A DNA stretch of 64,000 nucleotides, taken from positions 4,464,001-4,528,000 of the forward strand of contig NZ_AP023239.1 of NCBI RefSeq assembly GCF_013393385.1, given 5' to 3'. This stretch comes from Paenibacillus sp. URB8-2. Its GTDB lineage: Bacteria > Bacillota > Bacilli > Paenibacillales > Paenibacillaceae. The stretch's first letter is position 1, and each line of letters starts with the position of its first letter. The notes under the pieces were generated by a model, which saw only the letters and a program-made list of their open reading frames with translations, had not been told where the DNA came from and made no database searches. The position numbers and the translations under genes were made by a program. Positions 22,633-31,874 of this stretch are shown one piece after another.

Positions 22633-23721
22633 TTAGACAGCAAGTTTTTTGATGTTATGTGCGGCATTTTCATCTCGATCATGAAAGGTATGGCACGATG
22701 GACATTCCCATTGCCGCACAGACAATTTCTTTACTTCGGAATGGATATAGCCGCATACATGACACCTTTGGCTCGTTGGGGCGAACGTGTCGGCAACCTT
22801 CACCGTACGTCCATACCATTCCGCTTTATACGAAAGCTGACGTTCAAATTCACTCCAGGACGCATCGGCGATGGATTTGGCCAGCCGGTGATTTTTGAGC
22901 ATGTTCGCCACTTTCAGATTTTCGATGCTGATCGTTTGGTTTTCACGAATCAGCTTCGTGGTGAGTTGATGCAAAAAATCATGGCGGCTGCCCACGATCT
23001 TTTCATGGATTTGGGCAACCTTCTGTTTGGCTTTCTGCCAATTGGAGCCCCCTTGGTTACGGCGAGCCATGCGGCGTTGCCAAAATGCAAGTTTTTGTTC
23101 ATATTTGCGAAACACTTTGGGATTGGGAACCCGCACCTTATCAGAGCAGACCGCAAATTCCTTGAGTCCAAGGTCAACGCCAATCTCCTTATCGGTCTGC
23201 GGCAGAGGTTTCATTTCCACTTCGCAGAGGAGGGATACAAAATACTTGCCTGCCGCATTTCGCCGCAGGGTAGCAGAAAGAATGCGACCTTCACACGCTC
23301 TGGAGTTGGCAAAGCGAAGCCACCTAAGCTTCGGAAGTTTAAGTTGGTTTCCGTCGATAGCAATGTTGTCATTGGTGTATTTGGTGGTGTAGCTTTGCAC
23401 AGGATGCTTTCGGCTTTTGAAACGCGGGGCCTGATTTTGTTTCTTGAAGAAACGTTCAAAGCTGTCTGCCACGTTTCGCACCGCCGATTGCAAAGCAATG
23501 CTATCTACCGATTTCAACCATTCAAATTGCTGTTTGAGTGCAGGAAGCTGTGTGGCACAGGTGTTATAGGACAGCCCTTTGCCTGCCGCCGCATAGGTTT
23601 CGTTCCATTTGACTAAGAAATGATTGAAGACAAAGCGGCAACAGCCAAACATTTGATGGATGAGTTGCCGTTGTTCCGGATTGGGATAGACGCGATATTT
23701 GTAAGCTTTATGCACCAACAT
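22633..23721 (-). CDS. tnpB: TnpB, RNA-guided nuclease of an IS605-family element
   Basis: 362 residues, apparently intact. The N-terminal helix-turn-helix starts with [13 protein letters not shown]. The RuvC triad is D183 ([12 protein letters not shown]), E267 (ISIENLKV) and D350 ([10 protein letters not shown]). The zinc finger uses C320, C323, C340 and C343. TnpB cleaves DNA matching a guide transcribed from the element's right end and favours element retention. The ATG at 23721 follows AAGGAGG; the frame extends further without a better site. A TATAAT lies at 23760-23755. Confidence 0.92.
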
Positions 23722-23841
23722 GCCACAGGGCCTCCTTTCGTGTAAGACATTTCCATTATAGCACATGTGTTCGCTTTGAAGCGAAAAACCGCCGCTTCAT
23801 CTCCTCCCTATAGAGGAAGGAGTCTTCTCGGCTTTTAAGAT

Positions 23842-24060: not shown

Positions 24061-24993
24061 TTACCCGGCTTGTCCGCGCAACGCGGAGATGACTTCGGCC
24101 GATACGATCTCCGATATTTGCTCCTGCGACTCCTGCGTCAGCCCGGCGATATGGGGCGTGATCGTACAGGTCGGGAGCGCCAGCAGCGGATGATCCTTCA
24201 GCGGCGGCTCCTCGCCAAGCACGTCCAGCACGGCCCCGGCAAGTCTATTCGCAGAGAGCGCCCCAATCAGAGCTTCTTCGTCGACTACGGCCCCTCTCGA
24301 CGTATTGATCAGAACGGCGGTCGGCTTCACCAGATTCAGCGCCGAAGCGCCGATCAGACCGAGCGTCGACGGAAGCAGCGGAACATGCAGGCTGATATAG
24401 TCGCTTTCGGCCAGCACCCGGTTTAAGTCGGCGGGAATAATTCCCGCCTCGGCGGCAGTATCTCCGTCCTTCTCAAGCCGGGGGTCGCAGCCCAGAACCT
24501 TCATCCCGAGCGCCTTGGCCCTGGCGCCCGTCCGCCTGCCGATTTCGCCCACGCCGATGAGTCCCAGCGTCTTGCCTCCGATTTCATGCAGGGTGAACTG
24601 CTGCCGCGGCCAGCCCCCGGAACGCACGCTGTCCGCCGCATCCCCGAGACGGCGGGCGGAATGAAAGATGGCCGCGATGACGTATTCAGCCACAGAGGAA
24701 GCATTGGCGCTTCCCGCCGTAACGACCGGGATATGCCGCCGGGCCGCCGCATCCAGATCGATATTGTCCAGTCCTGCGCCGAGCCGTCCGATCACTTTAA
24801 GGCGGGGAGCCGCTTCGATCAAGTCCGCATTTACCCGCGTCTGGTTGCGGACAATCAGGGCGTCCGCTTCTTTGACGGCTTCACTCAGCTCCGGACTGTT
24901 CCACAGACCAGGATCATAATATACATGATGACCCTCTTGCTCAAGCCGTGCCAGTCCATTCGGAGCGTTCCACTCCGTTATAACAATATTCAT
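24061..24993 (-). CDS. slcC: D-2-hydroxyacid dehydrogenase, SlcC-like ((S)-sulfolactate dehydrogenase candidate)
   Basis: 310 residues of the phosphoglycerate-dehydrogenase family. The NAD-binding motif is LGLIGVGEIGRR. The catalytic Arg is in NTSRGAVVDE, the Glu in DVLGEEPP and the His in TITPHIAGLT. Alone this would be a generic hydroxyacid dehydrogenase. Next to a ComC-like dehydrogenase, a SuyAB-like lyase and a TctCAB-like transporter it matches SlcC, which with NAD+ oxidises (S)-sulfolactate to sulfopyruvate. The pair SlcC/ComC then racemises sulfolactate. Its start overlaps the upstream stop by 4 bases. The assignment rests on context. Confidence 0.65.
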   Translation of the reverse strand: MNIVITEWNAPNGLARLEQEGHHVYYDPGLWNSPELSEAVKEADALIVRNQTRVNADLIEAAPRLKVIGRLGAGLDNIDLDAAARRHIPVVTAGSANASSVAEYVIAAIFHSARRLGDAADSVRSGGWPRQQFTLHEIGGKTLGLIGVGEIGRRTGARAKALGMKVLGCDPRLEKDGDTAAEAGIIPADLNRVLAESDYISLHVPLLPSTLGLIGASALNLVKPTAVLINTSRGAVVDEEALIGALSANRLAGAVLDVLGEEPPLKDHPLLALPTCTITPHIAGLTQESQEQISEIVSAEVISALRGQAG

Positions 24994-26087
24994 GCCTCAT
25001 TTCCCCTTTGCGTTCCTTCATCCTCCTGCGTGAGCTGCGGAGGGAACGGAACCCCGGCAGTCACCGCCAAGTCTTCCAGTTCGCTTACGACATTGTCAGG
25101 CAGAGAAATGCCGGACAGCCGATTCCTCACGGCGGAGCGGAATCTCCGCTCTCCCGGAAGCAGAATCTCCTCCGCCCCGTGCGACAGAGGAACCTGCTTG
25201 ATCTCGTCCGCAAACCGCGAGACGGAGTCGCCGTACACCTCCGTGTCAAGCCAGCGGTCCAGCGAGAACAGCAGGATCACATGTCCCACATCGGCGTTCT
25301 TGTCGCCCTCCTTGTACAGGTTCCCGATATGCGGGCCGAAGGATGCTCCGGTCAGAATGCCGCACAGCATCTCCACGGCTAGCGCCAGCGCATACCCTTT
25401 GGCTCCGCCAAGCGGGAGAACCGCTCCTTTGAGCGCTTCTCCGGCATCGGTCGTCGGTCTTCCCTCGCTGTCGATCGCCCAACCTTCCGGTATTGGCTGC
25501 TCCTGCTTCTGCGCCTGCATGATCTTTCCCCGCGCTACAACGCTGGACGAGAGGTCGGCGACGATCGGCGGCTGGTCTCCGGCGCCGGACGGGAACCCGA
25601 ACCCAATCGGGTTCGTCCCGAGAAAGGCCGACCGGCCTCCCCAAGGAGCAATGCCCGGCGGGGAGTTGGTCATGACGACCGACGCCATGTTCTCCTTGGC
25701 CGCCTCCTGGCATAGGTAAGCCGCCGTTCCGAAGTGATTGCTTCCACGGACGAATACCGCCGCAACCCCCAACTCCCGGGCAACGGGAATACCCTCCTGC
25801 AAAGCCCGGACGGCGACAACCTGGCCCAGCCCGTTCCCGCCGTCCACGGTCAGCACAGCGCCGTGGCGCTCGGCAGCAATGTCCGGCGAAGCGCTGATTC
25901 TCCCTTCCCGGATGCGCCGGGAATAGACCGGCAGTCTGCTGACGCCATGGCTGCCATGCCCTTCCAGATCGGCGCGGATCAGCGAATCGGCCGTAATAAA
26001 CGCATCTTCCTCCGGTACATCCAAGGATATCAGAACCGACTGTACAAATTCGTAGAGCTTCCCGCTGTCATAGCGCTTTGCCGACAT
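24990..26087 (-). CDS. comC: Malate/L-lactate dehydrogenase family, ComC-like ((R)-sulfolactate dehydrogenase candidate)
   Basis: 365 residues of the Ldh2/YlbC/YiaK fold, unrelated to classical lactate dehydrogenases. Visible marks are ADLEGHGSHGVSRLP near the N-terminus, VRGSNHFGTAAY with the catalytic His, APWGGRSAFLGTNPIGFGFP and LPLGGAKGYAL. ComC reduces sulfopyruvate to (R)-sulfolactate. Partnered with SlcC it would complete conversion of the (S) to the (R) enantiomer. I used the ATG at 26087; an in-frame ATG 21 bases upstream contains the GGGGAGG ribosome site. Other family members act on ureidoglycolate, 2,3-diketogulonate or malate. Confidence 0.65.
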   Translation of the reverse strand: MSAKRYDSGKLYEFVQSVLISLDVPEEDAFITADSLIRADLEGHGSHGVSRLPVYSRRIREGRISASPDIAAERHGAVLTVDGGNGLGQVVAVRALQEGIPVARELGVAAVFVRGSNHFGTAAYLCQEAAKENMASVVMTNSPPGIAPWGGRSAFLGTNPIGFGFPSGAGDQPPIVADLSSSVVARGKIMQAQKQEQPIPEGWAIDSEGRPTTDAGEALKGAVLPLGGAKGYALALAVEMLCGILTGASFGPHIGNLYKEGDKNADVGHVILLFSLDRWLDTEVYGDSVSRFADEIKQVPLSHGAEEILLPGERRFRSAVRNRLSGISLPDNVVSELEDLAVTAGVPFPPQLTQEDEGTQRGNEA

Positions 26088-26128
26088 TTCCGCGTTACGC
26101 CTCCCCATTCATTTCACTTTATTGTTAT

Positions 26129-27283
26129 TCACGCGCTCGGATACAGCTTCGTCATCACAAATTCCCGGTGGCCGAGCGCTTCCGCCGCCGTCAGCCGTCC
26201 GTTAACGGTCCGTTCCAGCGTCTCCAGCAAGCGTTCCCGCGCTTCAGGCAGCGTAATCGTACGTTCCAGCAGCGGACTTACATCAACGTCGATATGCTCG
26301 GCCATCAGCTTGACCGTCTTCGGGTTGGCCGATACTTTGATCACCGGCTCGATCGGATTGCCAATCACATTGCCCTGACCCGTCGGAAAGAAATGGACGA
26401 CCGCTCCGGCGGCGGCCATGAGCGTTATGCACTCCGCAGCGGCGGAAGAGCTGTCCATGAAATACAGACCCGGGCCGTTCTGCGGCGCCTCGGCAGGCTT
26501 CAGTACGCCGATGACCTGCTTGCTGCCGGTTTTTTCGATATTGCCGAGCGCCTTCTCTTCAATCGTGGACAGCCCGCCGGCGATATTGCCCTGGGTCGGC
26601 TGGGAGCCGAGCAGATCCACTCCCTGGGAAGCGAATCCCGAGACATAACGGTCATAGGTGCGCTGGAATTGTCCGCGCAGCTCTTCCGTTGCCATCCGGT
26701 CCGCGATCAGATGCTCTCCGCCGGTAAGCTCGGAAGTCTCCCCGAAAAACACGGTCGCCCCCTGATCAATCAAATAGTCGACCGTTTCTCCTACCGTCGG
26801 GCAGGAGCCAAGCCCCGTCGTCGTATCCGATTCTCCGCACTTGATGCTTACGGTAAGCTCCGAGAGGGATACAGGCTCACGCTGAAGCTCTGTGGCCCAC
26901 TGCACGAATTCTTTGGCTTTCCAGGCCGCCCGCCGGATAATTTCCAGATCGCCCAAGCCTTCGATGGAGAATCCGGCAACCGGTTTGCCCGTTGCGGCGA
27001 TGCCGTCCGTTATGATCTTCGTCCAGTTCGGCTCGATGCCGATCACGATGACGGCCGCCACGTTCGGATTGCTGCCCGTTCCGATCATCGTCCGGAAGTG
27101 CAGCTCCAAATCCTCTCCGTACTGCAGCCGCCCGTAAGCATGAGGCAGAGCCAGCGTGCCCGAGATGACCTTAGCCACCGCCTCGCAGGCCGCGTTTGAA
27201 ATGTCGTCAACCGGTAAAATAATGACATGATTGCGAATGCCCACCTTGCCGTTTTCTCTGCGATATCCAAATAATTGTCCCAT
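26129..27283 (-). CDS. suyB: UxaA-family lyase large subunit, SuyB-like ((R)-sulfolactate sulfo-lyase beta candidate)
   Basis: 384 residues resembling the large domain of altronate/galactarate dehydratases but encoded apart from the small SAF domain. The N-terminus [19 protein letters not shown] is typical of the family. [20 protein letters not shown] and the later [16 protein letters not shown] match the conserved metal/substrate region. SuyAB cleaves (R)-3-sulfolactate to pyruvate and sulfite. The two-subunit layout, length and neighbours favour SuyB over a sugar-acid dehydratase, though the latter is not excluded. The ATG at 27283 has GAGGTGG upstream and begins 2 bases after suyA ends. 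Confidence 0.65.
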
Positions 27284-27285
27284 TG

Positions 27286-27564
27286 TTACCACCTCGCCGA
27301 TTTAATATTGTGAGTATGAACGTATTCCCCTTCGGTCAGCCCCTCCGGTGCAATGCCGATGGGAATGCCGTATTCGATGACCCTGCCGCCTTTCTCAAGA
27401 ACGCCGATGGATATTTTATGCCCCAACGGAACATTCTGAAGGCTTGTCACCGTTAATTCCGAATCGTCATCCATAAAGACCCCGACGACCTGCTGCCCGG
27501 CGGTAATGTCCGTCGTTGCGACACCCACCTGATCTCCCCGTTTGTGAATCAAAAAATGATGCAT
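27286..27564 (-). CDS. suyA: SAF-domain small subunit, SuyA-like ((R)-sulfolactate sulfo-lyase alpha candidate)
   Basis: 92 residues, essentially one SAF domain as found at the N-terminus of altronate dehydratase Uxa[16 protein letters not shown] opens it, and [13 protein letters not shown] plus [13 protein letters not shown] is the conserved core. It would pair with the following gene product to form a two-component lyase. The ATG at 27564 has GGGGG 7 bases upstream; ATGs at 27570 and 27585 are possible alternatives. Confidence 0.65.
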
Positions 27565-27592
27565 GCTCATTCCCCCATTCGTCATATTAGCG

Positions 27593-28690
27593 TTACTTGC
27601 GGATTCCCGTCTCGGTGGCGAGACCTGTGTAATACTCCGCTTCCTTTTTTACAAAATCCTTAAACCCCTGTCCTGTAAGCACGTTCGGATCAACCTGCAG
27701 CTTCTTGAGCTTCGCGACGAAATCCGGGTCCTGTGCCAGCTTGGCGACTCCATCTGCCCACTTCTTGACGATCTCCTGCGGCGTTCCTTTCGGAAAGCTC
27801 ATTCCCGTCCACCAGGAGACGGACAAATCCTTCACTCCCTGCTCCGCCGTTGTGGGGACATCGGGATAATACGGGCTGCGCTCGGGAGACAGGATTGCCA
27901 GCACCTTCAGCTTGCCAGCCTTGACCAGGGTGGAAGTCTCATTTACGGTGTGAACGGCCAGAACCGCGTTTCCTCCGGCTACAAGGGGCAGAGATTCGGA
28001 AGCGCCTTTAGTGGCAACCATCCGGGTTCTGGAAAAGTCGGCTCCAATCGCTTTCAGCCATTCGGCTACGGCAAAAGTAGAGAAGCCCGCAGGCCCTACG
28101 CTGGTCCAGGTCAATTTCTCGGGGTTCGCTTTCGCCCATTCCGAGAATTCGCGGAAATCCTTCCACGGCGCGTCGGCGGCCACCACGAAGACGGGCGCGT
28201 CCGTTACGACTCGGGCCGCAAATTCGTGGTCGCTTAGGAGAACCGGCGCCGCGGCCGATCCGGCCTGCAGCATGGTCGTGCTCGCCACATTATCCGCAAG
28301 CACCGTGTAGCCGTCATTGGCCGCTTGTTTGAGCGCGTACTGCGCGCCGGTGGCGCCGCCCGCGCCGGGCTTATTGACGATTTCGATCGGCTGCCCCCAT
28401 TCCTTGCTGAGCCCTTCCGCAACCGTCCGGGCAACCAAATCTACGCCGCCTCCGGCCGAGAACGGCACCACATATTCGATGGGCCTGTTCGGATAGTCGG
28501 CGTTAGCCGAGGAGGCCGATCCCGCCGCCGAAGCGGAGGGAACCGCCGTTTCACCGCCCGTTTGGGCAGCCCCGCCTGCGCCGGACTCCGCCGTGGAATT
28601 TGCTCCGCAGCCGGAGACCAGAAACAGCAGCGCCAGTGTCAGCGGCAGCAGCCGGGAAGCCTTTTTGTTCAATGTTTTCAATTCATTCAC
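27593..28690 (-). CDS. Tripartite tricarboxylate transporter solute-binding lipoprotein (TctC/Bug family)
   Basis: 365 residues. The signal peptide ends in a lipobox (LVSGC, Cys at about 28), followed by a Gly/Ala/Ser-rich tether. The mature protein begins with YPNRPIEYVVPFSAGGGVDLVAR, in outline the hallmark of Bug proteins, and NKPGAGGATGA. It captures a carboxylate outside the membrane and delivers it to TctAB. Location within the operon suggests the ligand is sulfolactate or a related hydroxyacid. AGGAGAGTGA precedes the ATG. Confidence 0.9.
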   Translation of the reverse strand: MNELKTLNKKASRLLPLTLALLFLVSGCGANSTAESGAGGAAQTGGETAVPSASAAGSASSANADYPNRPIEYVVPFSAGGGVDLVARTVAEGLSKEWGQPIEIVNKPGAGGATGAQYALKQAANDGYTVLADNVASTTMLQAGSAAAPVLLSDHEFAARVVTDAPVFVVAADAPWKDFREFSEWAKANPEKLTWTSVGPAGFSTFAVAEWLKAIGADFSRTRMVATKGASESLPLVAGGNAVLAVHTVNETSTLVKAGKLKVLAILSPERSPYYPDVPTTAEQGVKDLSVSWWTGMSFPKGTPQEIVKKWADGVAKLAQDPDFVAKLKKLQVDPNVLTGQGFKDFVKKEAEYYTGLATETGIRK

Positions 28691-28715
28691 TCTCCTAATT
28701 ATGTTTTAGGCGGCT

Positions 28716-30245
28716 TTACGCTTCCGCATTGATGATGCTGAGCGAATCGCCGCGTTCCTCACGGATTCTTTTTTTGGTGCGGCGGACCATGTACAGAGAG
28801 AAGACCAGCATGGCCGCGGCGGCTATAATGAAAGCGACCGAGAGACCTCTTTGAACAAAGATGCCGAGGCTTCCGCCGGAAATCGCCATCGACTGCAAAA
28901 ATGACTGCTCCATCAAGGGACCGAGAATAAAACAGAGAATAAGGGGCATGATCGGCCAGTCATGCTTTTGCAGGTAATAACCGGCGACCCCGAAGACAAC
29001 GGCCACCTGGACATCGAACAGATTGTTGCGTACCGTATAGGCTCCGATCATACTGAGCAGAAGAATCACCGGCGCAAGAATCGAGAACGGGACCCGGGTC
29101 AGCTTGGCCCAAATGCCCACCAGCGGCAGGTTCAGCACCAGCAGCATCACGTTGCCGATGAACATGCTCGCGATGACGGTCCACACAAAGCTTCCTTTCT
29201 GCTCGAACAGCATCGGACCCGGCGTCAGCCCGTAGATCATCAGTCCGGCGAGCAGTACGGCCAGCGGCGGCGAGGAAGGGATGCCGAGAGCGAACAGCGG
29301 AATAAATCCGGCCGAGCTTGTCGCGTTGTTCGCGGCTTCCGGAGCGGCCACGCCCTCGATGGCTCCTTTCCCGAACAGATGGCGGCGGCGCGAGATTCTT
29401 TTGGCGAAATCATAAGACAGAAAGGAAGTTACGGCTGCCGAGCAGCCCGGCAGCAGCCCCATGAAGAAACCGATCAGCCCGCCCGCGGCGATGGAAGGAG
29501 CGCTTTGCTTCAGATCCTGCCGGCCCGGATAGACGCTGCCGATATTTCCGGCGGAAATCGCGGTCTTCTTCTCCGACAAACCTCTCATAACTTCGGCGAT
29601 CGAGAAGAGCCCGATCAGAATGCTCACCATATCAAGCCCCCCTTCCAGCGGGCTCCAGCCCAAGGTGAACCGGTACAGACCGGAGTTCGCGCCTAGCCCG
29701 ATGAGTGACAAGGCAATGCCGGCCAGGCCCATAACGGCCGATTTGACGAATCGTCCGCCGGTCATTCCCATCATGATGACCAGCGTCAGGAGAAGGACGG
29801 AGAACATTTCCGGCGGACCGAAACGCAGCGCCTGATTGGCCAGCACGGGAGCGAACAGGACGAGACCGAGCACACCCAGCACGCCTGCGATAAAAGATGC
29901 GATAGCGGCGATGCCGAGTGCCGGTCCTCCCCTGCCCTGCTGTGCGAGCGGATAGCCGTCCAGACAGGTGGGGACGGATGAGGCCTCGCCCGGAATATTG
30001 AGCAGAATGGCGGTCGTCGATCCGCCGTACATCGCTCCGTAATAAATGCCCGCGAGCATGATAATCGCCTGCGTCGGTTCAAGAACCGCCGTTACGGGCA
30101 GCAGAATGGCGATCGACGAGGTCGGGCCAAGCCCCGGCAGCACGCCGACGAAGGTTCCCACAAGCACGCCGATGGCAGCCATCAGCAGATTCATCGGTGT
30201 GACCGCATGTCCAAAGCCGTCCAGCAGCATGGATAAATTGCTCAT
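28716..30245 (-). CDS. Tripartite tricarboxylate transporter large permease (TctA family)
   Basis: 509 residues with about 12 hydrophobic segments. GVLPGLGPTSSIAILLP near residue 35 and the related FFMGLLPGCSAAV segment in the second half are the duplicated TctA signature, as is GIYYGAMYGGSTTAILLNIPG. It forms the ion-driven transport channel with TctB. Its ATG directly follows the tctB stop codon, and the ribosome site lies inside the tctB end. Confidence 0.93.
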   Translation of the reverse strand: MSNLSMLLDGFGHAVTPMNLLMAAIGVLVGTFVGVLPGLGPTSSIAILLPVTAVLEPTQAIIMLAGIYYGAMYGGSTTAILLNIPGEASSVPTCLDGYPLAQQGRGGPALGIAAIASFIAGVLGVLGLVLFAPVLANQALRFGPPEMFSVLLLTLVIMMGMTGGRFVKSAVMGLAGIALSLIGLGANSGLYRFTLGWSPLEGGLDMVSILIGLFSIAEVMRGLSEKKTAISAGNIGSVYPGRQDLKQSAPSIAAGGLIGFFMGLLPGCSAAVTSFLSYDFAKRISRRRHLFGKGAIEGVAAPEAANNATSSAGFIPLFALGIPSSPPLAVLLAGLMIYGLTPGPMLFEQKGSFVWTVIASMFIGNVMLLVLNLPLVGIWAKLTRVPFSILAPVILLLSMIGAYTVRNNLFDVQVAVVFGVAGYYLQKHDWPIMPLILCFILGPLMEQSFLQSMAISGGSLGIFVQRGLSVAFIIAAAAMLVFSLYMVRRTKKRIREERGDSLSIINAEA

Positions 30246-30830
30246 TTAATCGCCTCCTTGATGCAGCCACAGCGTTCCTGCCGAAAACGGAGTGTGCAGC
30301 CATTCGATAAAGATCAAATACAGACCCGCCGTCAGCAGCAAAGCGTACACAGCGCAGCGCCACCATCTGCCGATTCCCAGCAGTCGAAACAGAAGCAGAG
30401 CGATGATGAAGGTCCCCACCAGGTAACCCGCCCAAGGAAGAATAAAAGTGTAGATCAGCAGCAGGAGCGGGATCAGGCCCTGCCTTGGCAGAAACTGAAG
30501 CCGCCCGCTTATCCGATCCCCCGAGCGAGTATCCGAAGGTGGAGATCCGTCAACAATGGACTCGTCAGCATTGAATTTGCCAATGGATGATTCGGCTTCC
30601 GCCAACTCCGGAGTGGTTAATCCGGCAGCGGACGATTTGACGGATGGCCCGGGAAACAATACCAACCAGACTCCCGCCAGGGCCAGTCCCGCTCCAATAA
30701 ATGCGGGGAAGGTATGGTCTCCGCCGAGCAGACTGACATGATAAGGGTATAGGCGGTAAGCTTCGCGAAGAGAGAGACAGCCGACCAGAATGGCAATCAC
30801 TCCGGCAGAGCGGTCAGCCGCGCTTTTCAT
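30246..30830 (-). CDS. Tripartite tricarboxylate transporter small permease (TctB family)
   Basis: 194 residues with four predicted membrane helices (two near each end) around a hydrophilic central stretch, as expected of TctB. It is the first gene of the operon. I chose the ATG at 30830, 7 bases after AGGAGG; the ATG at 30836 is only one base away from that site. The central loop is somewhat longer than usual and acidic. Confidence 0.8.
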   Translation of the reverse strand: MKSAADRSAGVIAILVGCLSLREAYRLYPYHVSLLGGDHTFPAFIGAGLALAGVWLVLFPGPSVKSSAAGLTTPELAEAESSIGKFNADESIVDGSPPSDTRSGDRISGRLQFLPRQGLIPLLLLIYTFILPWAGYLVGTFIIALLLFRLLGIGRWWRCAVYALLLTAGLYLIFIEWLHTPFSAGTLWLHQGGD

Positions 30831-30931
30831 TCTCATTCCTCCTGACTATGACCGTTTAAACGCAAAAAACCCGCCGAGGCTTTATATAGCCGAAAGGCAG
30901 GTCTCCGTCTGTACGGTCGACACTCTTAATA

Positions 30932-30949
30932 TATGTTGTATACAACATA
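30932..30949. promoter_or_regulatory. GntR operator 1 (operon side)
   Basis: Perfect 18-bp palindrome TATGTTGTATACAACATA. The core TTGTATACAA fits operators of FadR/VanR-type GntR proteins. Confidence 0.75.
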
Positions 30950-31101
30950 CAAATAAAAAAGATGAACTTCCACATTATCAGCAGCAATATGTATAGTCTA
31001 TAGGTTTAGTTGGCTTTATTCCTGCTATGCCACGTATCATATCACCGCCTTCTTTTTCCTGTCAATGCTATTTTCTCAACTATTTTTGCAGAAAATATCT
31101 T

Positions 31102-31130
31102 TTGACAAATACTTGCTAATATGATTTAAA
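31102..31130 (+). promoter_or_regulatory. Promoter of the GntR gene
   Basis: TTGACA at 31102, 17-base spacer, TTTAAA at 31125 (or TTAAAT one base later). Confidence 0.65.
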
Positions 31131-31133
31131 TAA

Positions 31134-31149
31134 ATGTTGTATACATGAT
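31134..31149. promoter_or_regulatory. GntR operator 2 (regulator side)
   Basis: ATGTTGTATACATGAT, 14 of 16 bases identical to operator 1. It lies just after the -10 box of the regulator's own promoter, which fits autorepression. Confidence 0.65.
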
Positions 31150-31184
31150 TTATGCAATCACTTGACCCGATAAGGAATGATTCC

Positions 31185-31874
31185 ATGCCTAAACTGATCC
31201 GAATCGATAATGCCAATTTGCTGGAGAAAACATACGGCATTCTGAAAGAACTGATTATCAAAAGAGAGTTCCCGCCCGAACACAAGCTCTCCATTCCCGA
31301 ATTATCTGCTCAGCTTGGGGTAAGCCGGACGCCGATCCGTGATGCGCTGGGCCGGCTGGAAATGGACGGATTGATCAAGACGGTGCCGAAGGTCGGCACT
31401 TTTGTCGTCGGGTTCTCCTCTGAGAACGTGCTCGACATTATGGATACGCGCCTGATGATTGAACTGTGGGTCGTGGAGAAGCTGACTTCGGGAATGGCCC
31501 AGGCCAGTCAGGATATCGTCTCCAATATGGAGAAGATTCATGAAACCTCGGTCTATATCGTCAACACCTCGAAGCTGGAAAATTACCACGAAGGAGATTA
31601 CAATCTTCATTTTCACATGGAATTTCTGAAGTTGGGCGGAAACCGGAATATTCTGAATATATATCAAAACACCATGAATTACCGCTACCTGGCGATGAAA
31701 TCGTACCTGATTACGAAGGAAATGGTCCTTCATTCATTGCAGCAGCACGAACGGATTATCGGTTCCCTCAAGGCGGGCTCCCATGACGATCTTAGACAAG
31801 TGGTGAGCGAGCATCTGGAGGATGCGAAAATCCGTCTGTACAAAAATATCAATCTGAACGGCGGGCTGATCTAA
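31185..31874 (+). CDS. GntR-family (FadR subfamily) regulator of the sulfolactate-type operon
   Basis: 229 residues. The N-terminal winged helix has YGILKELIIKREFPPEHKLS, LSAQLGVSRTPIRDALGRL and GLIKTVPKVGTFV. The C-terminal FCD-type all-helical domain binds an effector, with histidines in YNLHFHMEFL and QQHERI and SEHLEDA that could hold a metal. It is divergent from the operon, and matching operators lie between. It would play the role of SlcR in sulfolactate users. The ATG at 31185 follows AAGGAATGATTCC; an earlier in-frame ATG at 31152 lacks a ribosome site. Confidence 0.85.
   Translation: MPKLIRIDNANLLEKTYGILKELIIKREFPPEHKLSIPELSAQLGVSRTPIRDALGRLEMDGLIKTVPKVGTFVVGFSSENVLDIMDTRLMIELWVVEKLTSGMAQASQDIVSNMEKIHETSVYIVNTSKLENYHEGDYNLHFHMEFLKLGGNRNILNIYQNTMNYRYLAMKSYLITKEMVLHSLQQHERIIGSLKAGSHDDLRQVVSEHLEDAKIRLYKNINLNGGLI

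Follow-up and report, generated by a model that had tools for sequence, protein, structure and literature searches.

A seven-gene cluster in the genome of Paenibacillus sp. URB8-2, together with a divergent regulator gene, most likely forms an operon for the uptake and desulfonation of sulfolactate, a reading of the sequence evidence to which we assign a probability of roughly 0.87. The cluster lies within a stretch of 64,000 nucleotides, hereafter the window (C1:4464001-4528000 of a one-contig genome of 5.58 Mb). An initial sequence-only reading of the window had proposed seven minus-strand genes with a GntR gene facing away from them, and the list of open reading frames bore this out for all eight genes in both position and strand. 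The order on the minus strand is tctB-tctA-tctC-suyA-suyB-comC-slcC, with the gene for a GntR/FCD-family regulator (gntR) divergent. The successive gaps from tctB to slcC are 0, 25, 7, 2 (if suyB begins at its ATG), 20 and -4 bases, and Pfam families were assigned to seven of the eight genes (TctB, TctA, TctC, GD_AH_second with GD_AH_C, Ldh_2, 2-Hacid_dh(+C) and GntR with FCD). In the proposed pathway, TctABC would import 3-sulfolactate; SlcC, using nicotinamide adenine dinucleotide (NAD) with the S-isomer, and ComC, using NAD(P) with the R-isomer, would interconvert the isomers via sulfopyruvate; and SuyAB would split (R)-sulfolactate into pyruvate and sulfite. For the sulfite, the routes would be export through a TauE-type protein encoded far from the cluster, oxidation or assimilation. 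As long as no inducer is bound to hand, the GntR/FCD protein would repress the operon from a palindrome about 90 nucleotides downstream of the promoter, and a terminator in the leader, with a small conserved hairpin before it, would provide a second control. Gene content and the family of SuyB are observed directly; the substrates and activities are inferred.

We placed 38 chosen proteins in a tree, in which the product of suyB (26129..27283, minus strand; PF04295 and PF20629), the expected large subunit of (R)-sulfolactate sulfo-lyase, fell within a 28-row clade (support 100/100) with the SuyB proteins of Cupriavidus pinatubonensis and Paracoccus. This clade was separate from E. coli UxaA and GarD, from the genome's own UxaA and from sugar-acid paralogues, on a long stem of 1.53; GarD and the Variovorax row are long branches whose exact positions are unsure. 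Grouping of the lyase with sugar-acid dehydratases, which the sequence-only reading had itself named as grounds for abandoning its proposal, was thus not seen for the large subunit. Sequence identity showed the same separation, with 65-66% to Cupriavidus and Paracoccus SuyB vs 28-30% to E. coli GarD and UxaA and the genome's own UxaA; the nearest named SuyB, from Paenibacillus sp. 7124, was 97% identical. In a plasmid collection, SuyB relatives were found in 13 records at 63.8-68.6% identity before a drop to about 39%. Where the annotations could be inspected, the near group had sulfonate-related neighbours: hpsN/hpsO in Cupriavidus pinatubonensis; molybdopterin oxidoreductase/cytochrome genes and one for a sulfate exporter in Paracoccus ferrooxidans; and, in Methylobacterium oryzae, genes for TauE, GntR, two dehydrogenases and molybdopterin oxidoreductase as well as exporter genes. 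The far group (about 39%) takes in sugar-acid operons on Priestia and Salmonella plasmids. The two-subunit build of the enzyme is present in the window, a large GD_AH subunit being accompanied by the putative small SAF-like subunit encoded by suyA (27286..27585, minus strand), which scored just under the SAF cut-off (20.1 bits vs 21). A suyA match was present in the SuyB-clade loci searched, immediately 5' of suyB in those mapped. The suyB frame is open from a GTG at 27292; because the closest relatives are 384 amino acids long, translation probably starts at the ATG at 27283.

We then compared gene neighbourhoods (L numbers denote loci and G numbers genomes of the survey). The markers of sulfonate or sulfite metabolism were homologues of TauE, YeiH/SuyZ, HpsN and sulfite dehydrogenase, with exporters counted up to 9 kb away and HpsN and sulfite dehydrogenase anywhere in the locus, up to about 10 kb a side. 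Only loci with at least 5 kb on both sides were counted, which dropped 61 of 142 SuyB-clade loci and 25 of 46 paralogue loci for short flanks. A marker was found near 48 of 81 SuyB-clade loci vs 0 of 21 paralogue loci (Fisher p 1.7e-7, with loci that are not independent, several being close kin). Detection relied on a few reference proteins, so that distant homologues are missed on both sides. HpsN itself occurred in 22 of the 81 SuyB-clade loci. Together, the SuyB tree, the identity gap and the neighbourhood contrast support the earlier proposal of a sulfolactate catabolic island, and desulfonation of sulfolactate with a two-dehydrogenase racemase is very likely encoded here.

The remaining enzymes and the transporter would supply the other steps. 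The product of comC (24990..26108, minus strand; PF02615, 375.7 bits), expected to act between (R)-sulfolactate and sulfopyruvate, is probably an Ldh_2 enzyme working like ComC, and its query gave a single match in the genome at E up to 0.001. The slcC gene (24061..24993, minus strand; PF02826/PF00389) encodes a SerA-like 2-hydroxyacid dehydrogenase expected to act between (S)-sulfolactate and sulfopyruvate. Its product carries the motifs INTSRG from residue 229, GEEPP from 260 and TPHIAG from 279, matching the Arg, Glu and His that we take to be the catalytic residues of SlcC-type 2-hydroxyacid dehydrogenases. According to an excerpt of PMC9594981, SlcC and ComC adjoin SuyAB in most Paracoccus. 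All three subunits of a tripartite tricarboxylate transporter (TTT) were identified by Pfam, as in an SlcHFG-like importer: the small membrane subunit TctB (30246..30836; PF07331, 50.6 bits), the large membrane subunit TctA (28716..30245; PF01970, 500.9 bits; 61% identical to TctA of the Bacillus sp. SA1-12 suy operon) and the solute-binding lipoprotein TctC (27593..28690; PF03401, 155.6 bits), all on the minus strand, the last with an LVSGC lipobox seen by eye at its N-terminus. TTT systems for sulfolactate are named SlcHFG in Roseovarius and Chromohalobacter in an excerpt of PMC5812351, and by analogy sulfolactate would be the substrate of TctABC.

Some observations weigh against sulfolactate catabolism as the function of the island. 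The best NCBIfam match of comC, L-sulfolactate dehydrogenase (NF040650), reached 266 bits vs a curated cut-off of 500. In the SlcC tree, the window protein grouped with SlcC of other suy loci and not with its six own paralogues, at a weak support of 44/81; this is the branch on which one change splits 18 suy neighbours from nine others. No marker was found in 33 of the 81 SuyB-clade loci; these include each of the five same-genus loci and, from the phylum sample, all six of L170-L175. A relative of the same genus (L166, in G341) keeps gntR, the leader, tctBAC and suyAB, comC and slcC being absent from the part of the locus that was read. Finally, a Variovorax plasmid carries a very similar gene set with a lyase of only 39% identity, so that architecture alone does not prove the substrate. 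This Variovorax locus (L014) comprises a hydroxyacid dehydrogenase, a split UxaA pair, TctC and Ldh beside CoA-transferase genes, and looks like a parallel pathway of similar architecture for some hydroxyacid. As for L166, its form of the operon should use only (R)-sulfolactate.

The distribution of SuyB is patchy. Counting the window's own genome in each case, SuyB was found at 90% identity or more in 7 of 100 genomes of the genus, at 78% or more in 7 of 295 genomes of the family (the other 51 matching genomes held only paralogues, at 38-44%) and at 60% or more in 21 of 398 genomes of the phylum sample. One genome of this last sample (G551:C1) has four SuyB genes, at 90491, 622594, 1721720 and 1728132, with 68-69% identity. 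Five of the six other suy-bearing genomes of the genus were read (L157 and L163-L166; G351 was left out). The whole operon with gntR recurs in the same order in four of them (L157, L163, L164 and L165), from which we conclude that the arrangement is not due to chance. The sequence-only reading had placed such operons among proteobacteria, which proved too narrow, since SuyB-clade loci also occur in Actinomycetota, Bacillota, Chloroflexota and Acidobacteria. Within Bacillota, suy genes or sulfolactate use had already been noted in a Thermanaeromonas genome bin (excerpt of PMC9826295) and in Desulfitobacterium hafniense (excerpt of PMC12890257). Beyond the end of the operon, a gene judged TnpB/OrfB-like by eye (window 22633-23766) lies between slcC and a gene for an RlmA-like methyltransferase. 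In L157, a near-identical relative, only some 430 bases separate its two neighbours, so the TnpB/OrfB-like gene looks like an insertion.

The fate of the sulfite is a second question raised by the cluster. The sequence-only reading had seen no gene for sulfite handling in the cluster. This agrees with our results for the window and the five same-genus loci read, as no TauE or YeiH/SuyZ gene was found in their suy clusters. Outside the genus, an exporter was found in eight of ten Bacilli loci (L018, L021, L022 and L158-L162); by the marker test L020 and L025 had none, with a partial tblastn match in L020. In L158-L162, from five other genomes of the family, a YeiH-type exporter gene comes immediately after suyA-suyB-comC-slcC, and a TauE gene lies within 9 kb in L158-L160, immediately 5' of suyA in L158. 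The L158 locus (G004:C1:5139000-5158900) is a run of at least 14 same-strand genes that encode MR_MLE, aldose epimerase, SDR, metallo-hydrolase and aldehyde dehydrogenase proteins, then TauE, and that end in suyAB-comC-slcC and the YeiH exporter; it is a candidate for a complete sulfosugar-mineralising operon in a Gram-positive bacterium. In the window's genome, PF03601 gave no match that would place a SuyZ exporter elsewhere. A single TauE-family gene was found at C1:4675665-4676552, about 185 kb from the cluster. Within the genus, this distant gene is present in six of seven suy-bearing genomes vs 4 of the 93 others (Fisher p 1.2e-6), a co-occurrence that may reflect shared descent, the suy-bearing species possibly being close kin.

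A sulfite oxidase was looked for and none is called, since the sole PF00174 gene of the genome (C1:5062496) is a b561-like fusion and the MsrP, SorA, SoxC and SorT models matched only far below cut-off. This gene (6684-7988 of L168, at about 5.06 Mb of G000:C1) combines a molybdopterin oxidoreductase domain with an N-terminal cytochrome b561-like domain that scored just under the Pfam cut-off. Recycling of the cell's own spore sulfolactate through ComA is likewise not supported, as phosphosulfolactate synthase had no match in the genome while the Bacillus subtilis control search was positive. Two readings of the fate of sulfite remain, namely export via the distant TauE protein or use as a sulfur source.

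Expression of the island appears to be controlled in the region between gntR and tctB. The operon promoter (31036..31065, minus strand; TTGACA-18-TATGAT with an extended TG) agrees with the consensus at 11 of 12 positions, and both boxes are kept in all six genus loci aligned. Downstream lies the perfect palindrome TGTTGTATACAACA (30934..30947), a probable GntR operator in the leader, which is also kept in all six loci with one transition in three of them; it had no match in shuffled sequences, for a pattern picked after seeing it. A second, weaker copy 5' of gntR (31135..31148, plus strand) is only half conserved, clear in three of the six genomes and degenerate in the rest, and is a possible site of gntR autoregulation. 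The divergent gntR gene was itself as proposed (PF00392 and PF07729), with one change: a start at 31152 is available in only two of the six aligned genomes, and a start at 31185 (31185..31874, plus strand) is present in all six, as GTG in one. Between the palindrome and tctB, all six loci have a 4-bp hairpin of the form GACC-NN-AYNN-NN-GGAG that abuts an intrinsic terminator, made up of a terminator hairpin and U6; in the window the whole element spans 30860..30925 (minus strand) and its terminator ends 27 nucleotides 5' of tctB. Promoter, palindrome and terminator are observed features; repression and attenuation are the functions they suggest.

Folding gave a mixed picture of the leader. The 199-nucleotide leader folded better than 200 of 200 shuffles (z -3.75); the 66-nucleotide core was not exceptional (z -1.71), its small hairpin being present in the minimum-energy fold and absent from the centroid. 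The stems are preserved across the six suy leaders, with covariation no better than in shuffles. Rfam 15 gave no match to the window at the gathering score, and a scan of 421 bases at E up to 5 also gave none; its four matches in the six relatives' loci did not fall on the leader motif. At 20 further starts from 16 suy loci outside the genus, we found one convincing leader terminator (L025, from Bacillus sp. SA1-12, 102 nucleotides 5' of suyA) and one weak one (L172), and none at the other 18.

To look for relatives of this element, a covariance model built from the six suy leaders was used to search 100 genomes of the genus. At E up to 0.01 per genome it returned 52 matches in 43 genomes, with the suy leaders at 79-93 bits and the next match at 38.5; the seventh suy-bearing genome, G351, gave none. 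Of the 51 matches viewed (G212:C3:135811 was left out), 31 were plain terminators or T-boxes and 20 had the small hairpin, one of which (G301) lay inside a coding frame and was dropped. The 19 non-coding sites comprise six suy leaders, five LysR-then-tauCAB-like transporters (G102, G275, G064, G271 and G042), four ssu-like operons that include flavoprotein and ferredoxin genes (G320, G342, G197 and G053) and one sulfate transporter, sbp-cysT-cysW (G013), as well as single sites at OsmC (G334), between arylsulfatase and rhamnogalacturonan lyase genes (G341) and before an AraC regulator (G324). Sixteen of the 19 sites, and four of the seven gene families, thus concern sulfur-source uptake, an enrichment that is post hoc in that the matches were picked by a model built from suy leaders. 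Families were called by NCBIfam for G102, G042, G320, G342 and G013, by a near-identical leader and the same frame spacing for G064 and G271, and by a near-identical leader alone for G275, G197 and G053. The sulfate transporter proteins of G013 passed the curated cut-offs; the tau and ssu proteins had TauA/TauB/TauC or SsuA/SsuC as best matches, mostly below cut-off, and the best match of the ssu ATPase was SaoA.

There is a nearly even chance that the hairpin and terminator form an ordinary unregulated terminator whose likeness to other leaders is due to chance, a reading favoured by the many plain terminators and T-boxes among the model matches and the match within a coding frame. The loose hairpin pattern was also matched at four unrelated loci in 2.86 Mb, and a looser one at two more places. 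The small hairpin is missing from the window's centroid fold as well as from the minimum-energy folds of two ssu leaders, which prefer another pairing. However, the element stands between the promoter and the first gene in six of six suy loci, and most motif-bearing non-coding sites were assigned to sulfur-source operons. In an alignment of 17 rows (13 distinct; G013 and G324 left out), all cells of the small hairpin pair, and two of its four pairs change on both sides, from G-C to A-U and from U-A to G-C or A-U. None of 500 shuffles reached the observed values of cells paired, double-change cells or the covariation score, and slid structures scored at most 0.061 vs 0.513, although related rows inflate these measures and the counts of covarying pairs and pair types were reached by 376 and 396 of 500 shuffles. 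Somewhat against the odds, we offer only tentatively the view that the leader is a previously undescribed cis-regulatory RNA of the genus, with the hairpin ACC-NN-AYNN-NN-GGAG and a terminator, that senses sulfur status, either itself or via a protein, and gates read-through into suy, tau, ssu and sbp-cysTW, the suy island serving chiefly in sulfur scavenging. In G013 the small hairpin and the terminator base share bases and, judged by eye from the fold, are mutually exclusive, which would suit an antiterminator. Sulfur scavenging would also account for the lack of an exporter in the suy islands of the genus, as the sulfite would be assimilated and not dumped. Such tuning of the island to sulfur supply is a proposal, unproven and made post hoc.

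Two other explanations concern the substrate. SuyAB could be genuine and yet receive its substrate from internal breakdown of cysteate, dihydroxypropanesulfonate or a sulfosugar, with the transporter carrying something else. This is improbable: suyAB-comC-slcC does end a run resembling sulfosugar breakdown in L158, and hpsN is found in over a quarter of the SuyB-clade loci, but none of the window's eight genes is of that kind, TctABC comes first in the cluster, and TTT systems for sulfolactate have been described (excerpt of PMC5812351). Least probable is that the lyase is a split altronate/galactarate-type dehydratase in an operon degrading another 2-hydroxyacid, since, despite a sole NCBIfam match of SuyB to galactarate dehydratase (128 bits vs a cut-off of 731) and the distant lyase of the look-alike Variovorax operon, the SuyB tree, the identity gap and the neighbourhood contrast all speak against it and no 2-keto-3-deoxy aldolase or other sugar-acid enzyme is encoded among the eight genes.

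Sulfolactate is a component of endospores that is set free on germination (excerpt of PMC9826295), and aerobic Bacilli form it when they break down sulfoquinovose (excerpt of PMC9594981). A Paenibacillus-like consumer of sulfolactate would thus close a short loop of the sulfur cycle, and the operon may serve the gathering of sulfur as well as of carbon. The leader element, if true, would offer a way into the question of how these bacteria choose between sulfur sources, and would be a candidate new regulatory RNA that is open to testing. The titles and abstract openings listed by searches of open-licence PubMed Central papers yielded no Paenibacillus suy operon or sulfonate leader RNA, which is no proof that none is in print.

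Among known systems, slcHFG/slcC/comC/suyAB of Chromohalobacter salexigens resembles the window in having a TTT importer, a racemase of SlcC and ComC, and SuyAB (Denger and Cook 2010, as cited in excerpts of PMC5812351, PMC6303947 and PMC9594981); compared by description, the window differs in its gene order of tctB-tctA-tctC-suyA-suyB-comC-slcC, its GntR/FCD control and its leader terminator. The hpsN/hpsO-suyAB locus of Cupriavidus pinatubonensis (L011) shares SuyAB, with SuyB 65% identical, whereas it adjoins dihydroxypropanesulfonate genes and has no SlcC or ComC match. The suyAB-exporter cluster of Paracoccus (L005) likewise has a SuyA-SuyB pair (SuyB 66% identical) and an adjoining GntR regulator, while neither an exporter nor a sulfite dehydrogenase gene was found in the window cluster; Rein et al. 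reportedly described such a suyAB-exporter cluster in P. pantotrophus in 2005. The suyAB-slcC-comC-tctBAC locus of Bacillus sp. SA1-12 (L025) has all seven genes, a TctA 61% identical, no exporter found and a leader terminator, and differs in gene order and leader sequence. The bacterial attenuators and leader RNAs of Rfam 15 share a hairpin and intrinsic terminator 5' of an operon, and no family among them matches the window leader. The enzymes are of a known kind, and the window is a further occurrence of a known pathway; new here are the form of the operon, which has no exporter but a conserved leader terminator, and a putative sulfur-linked leader RNA.

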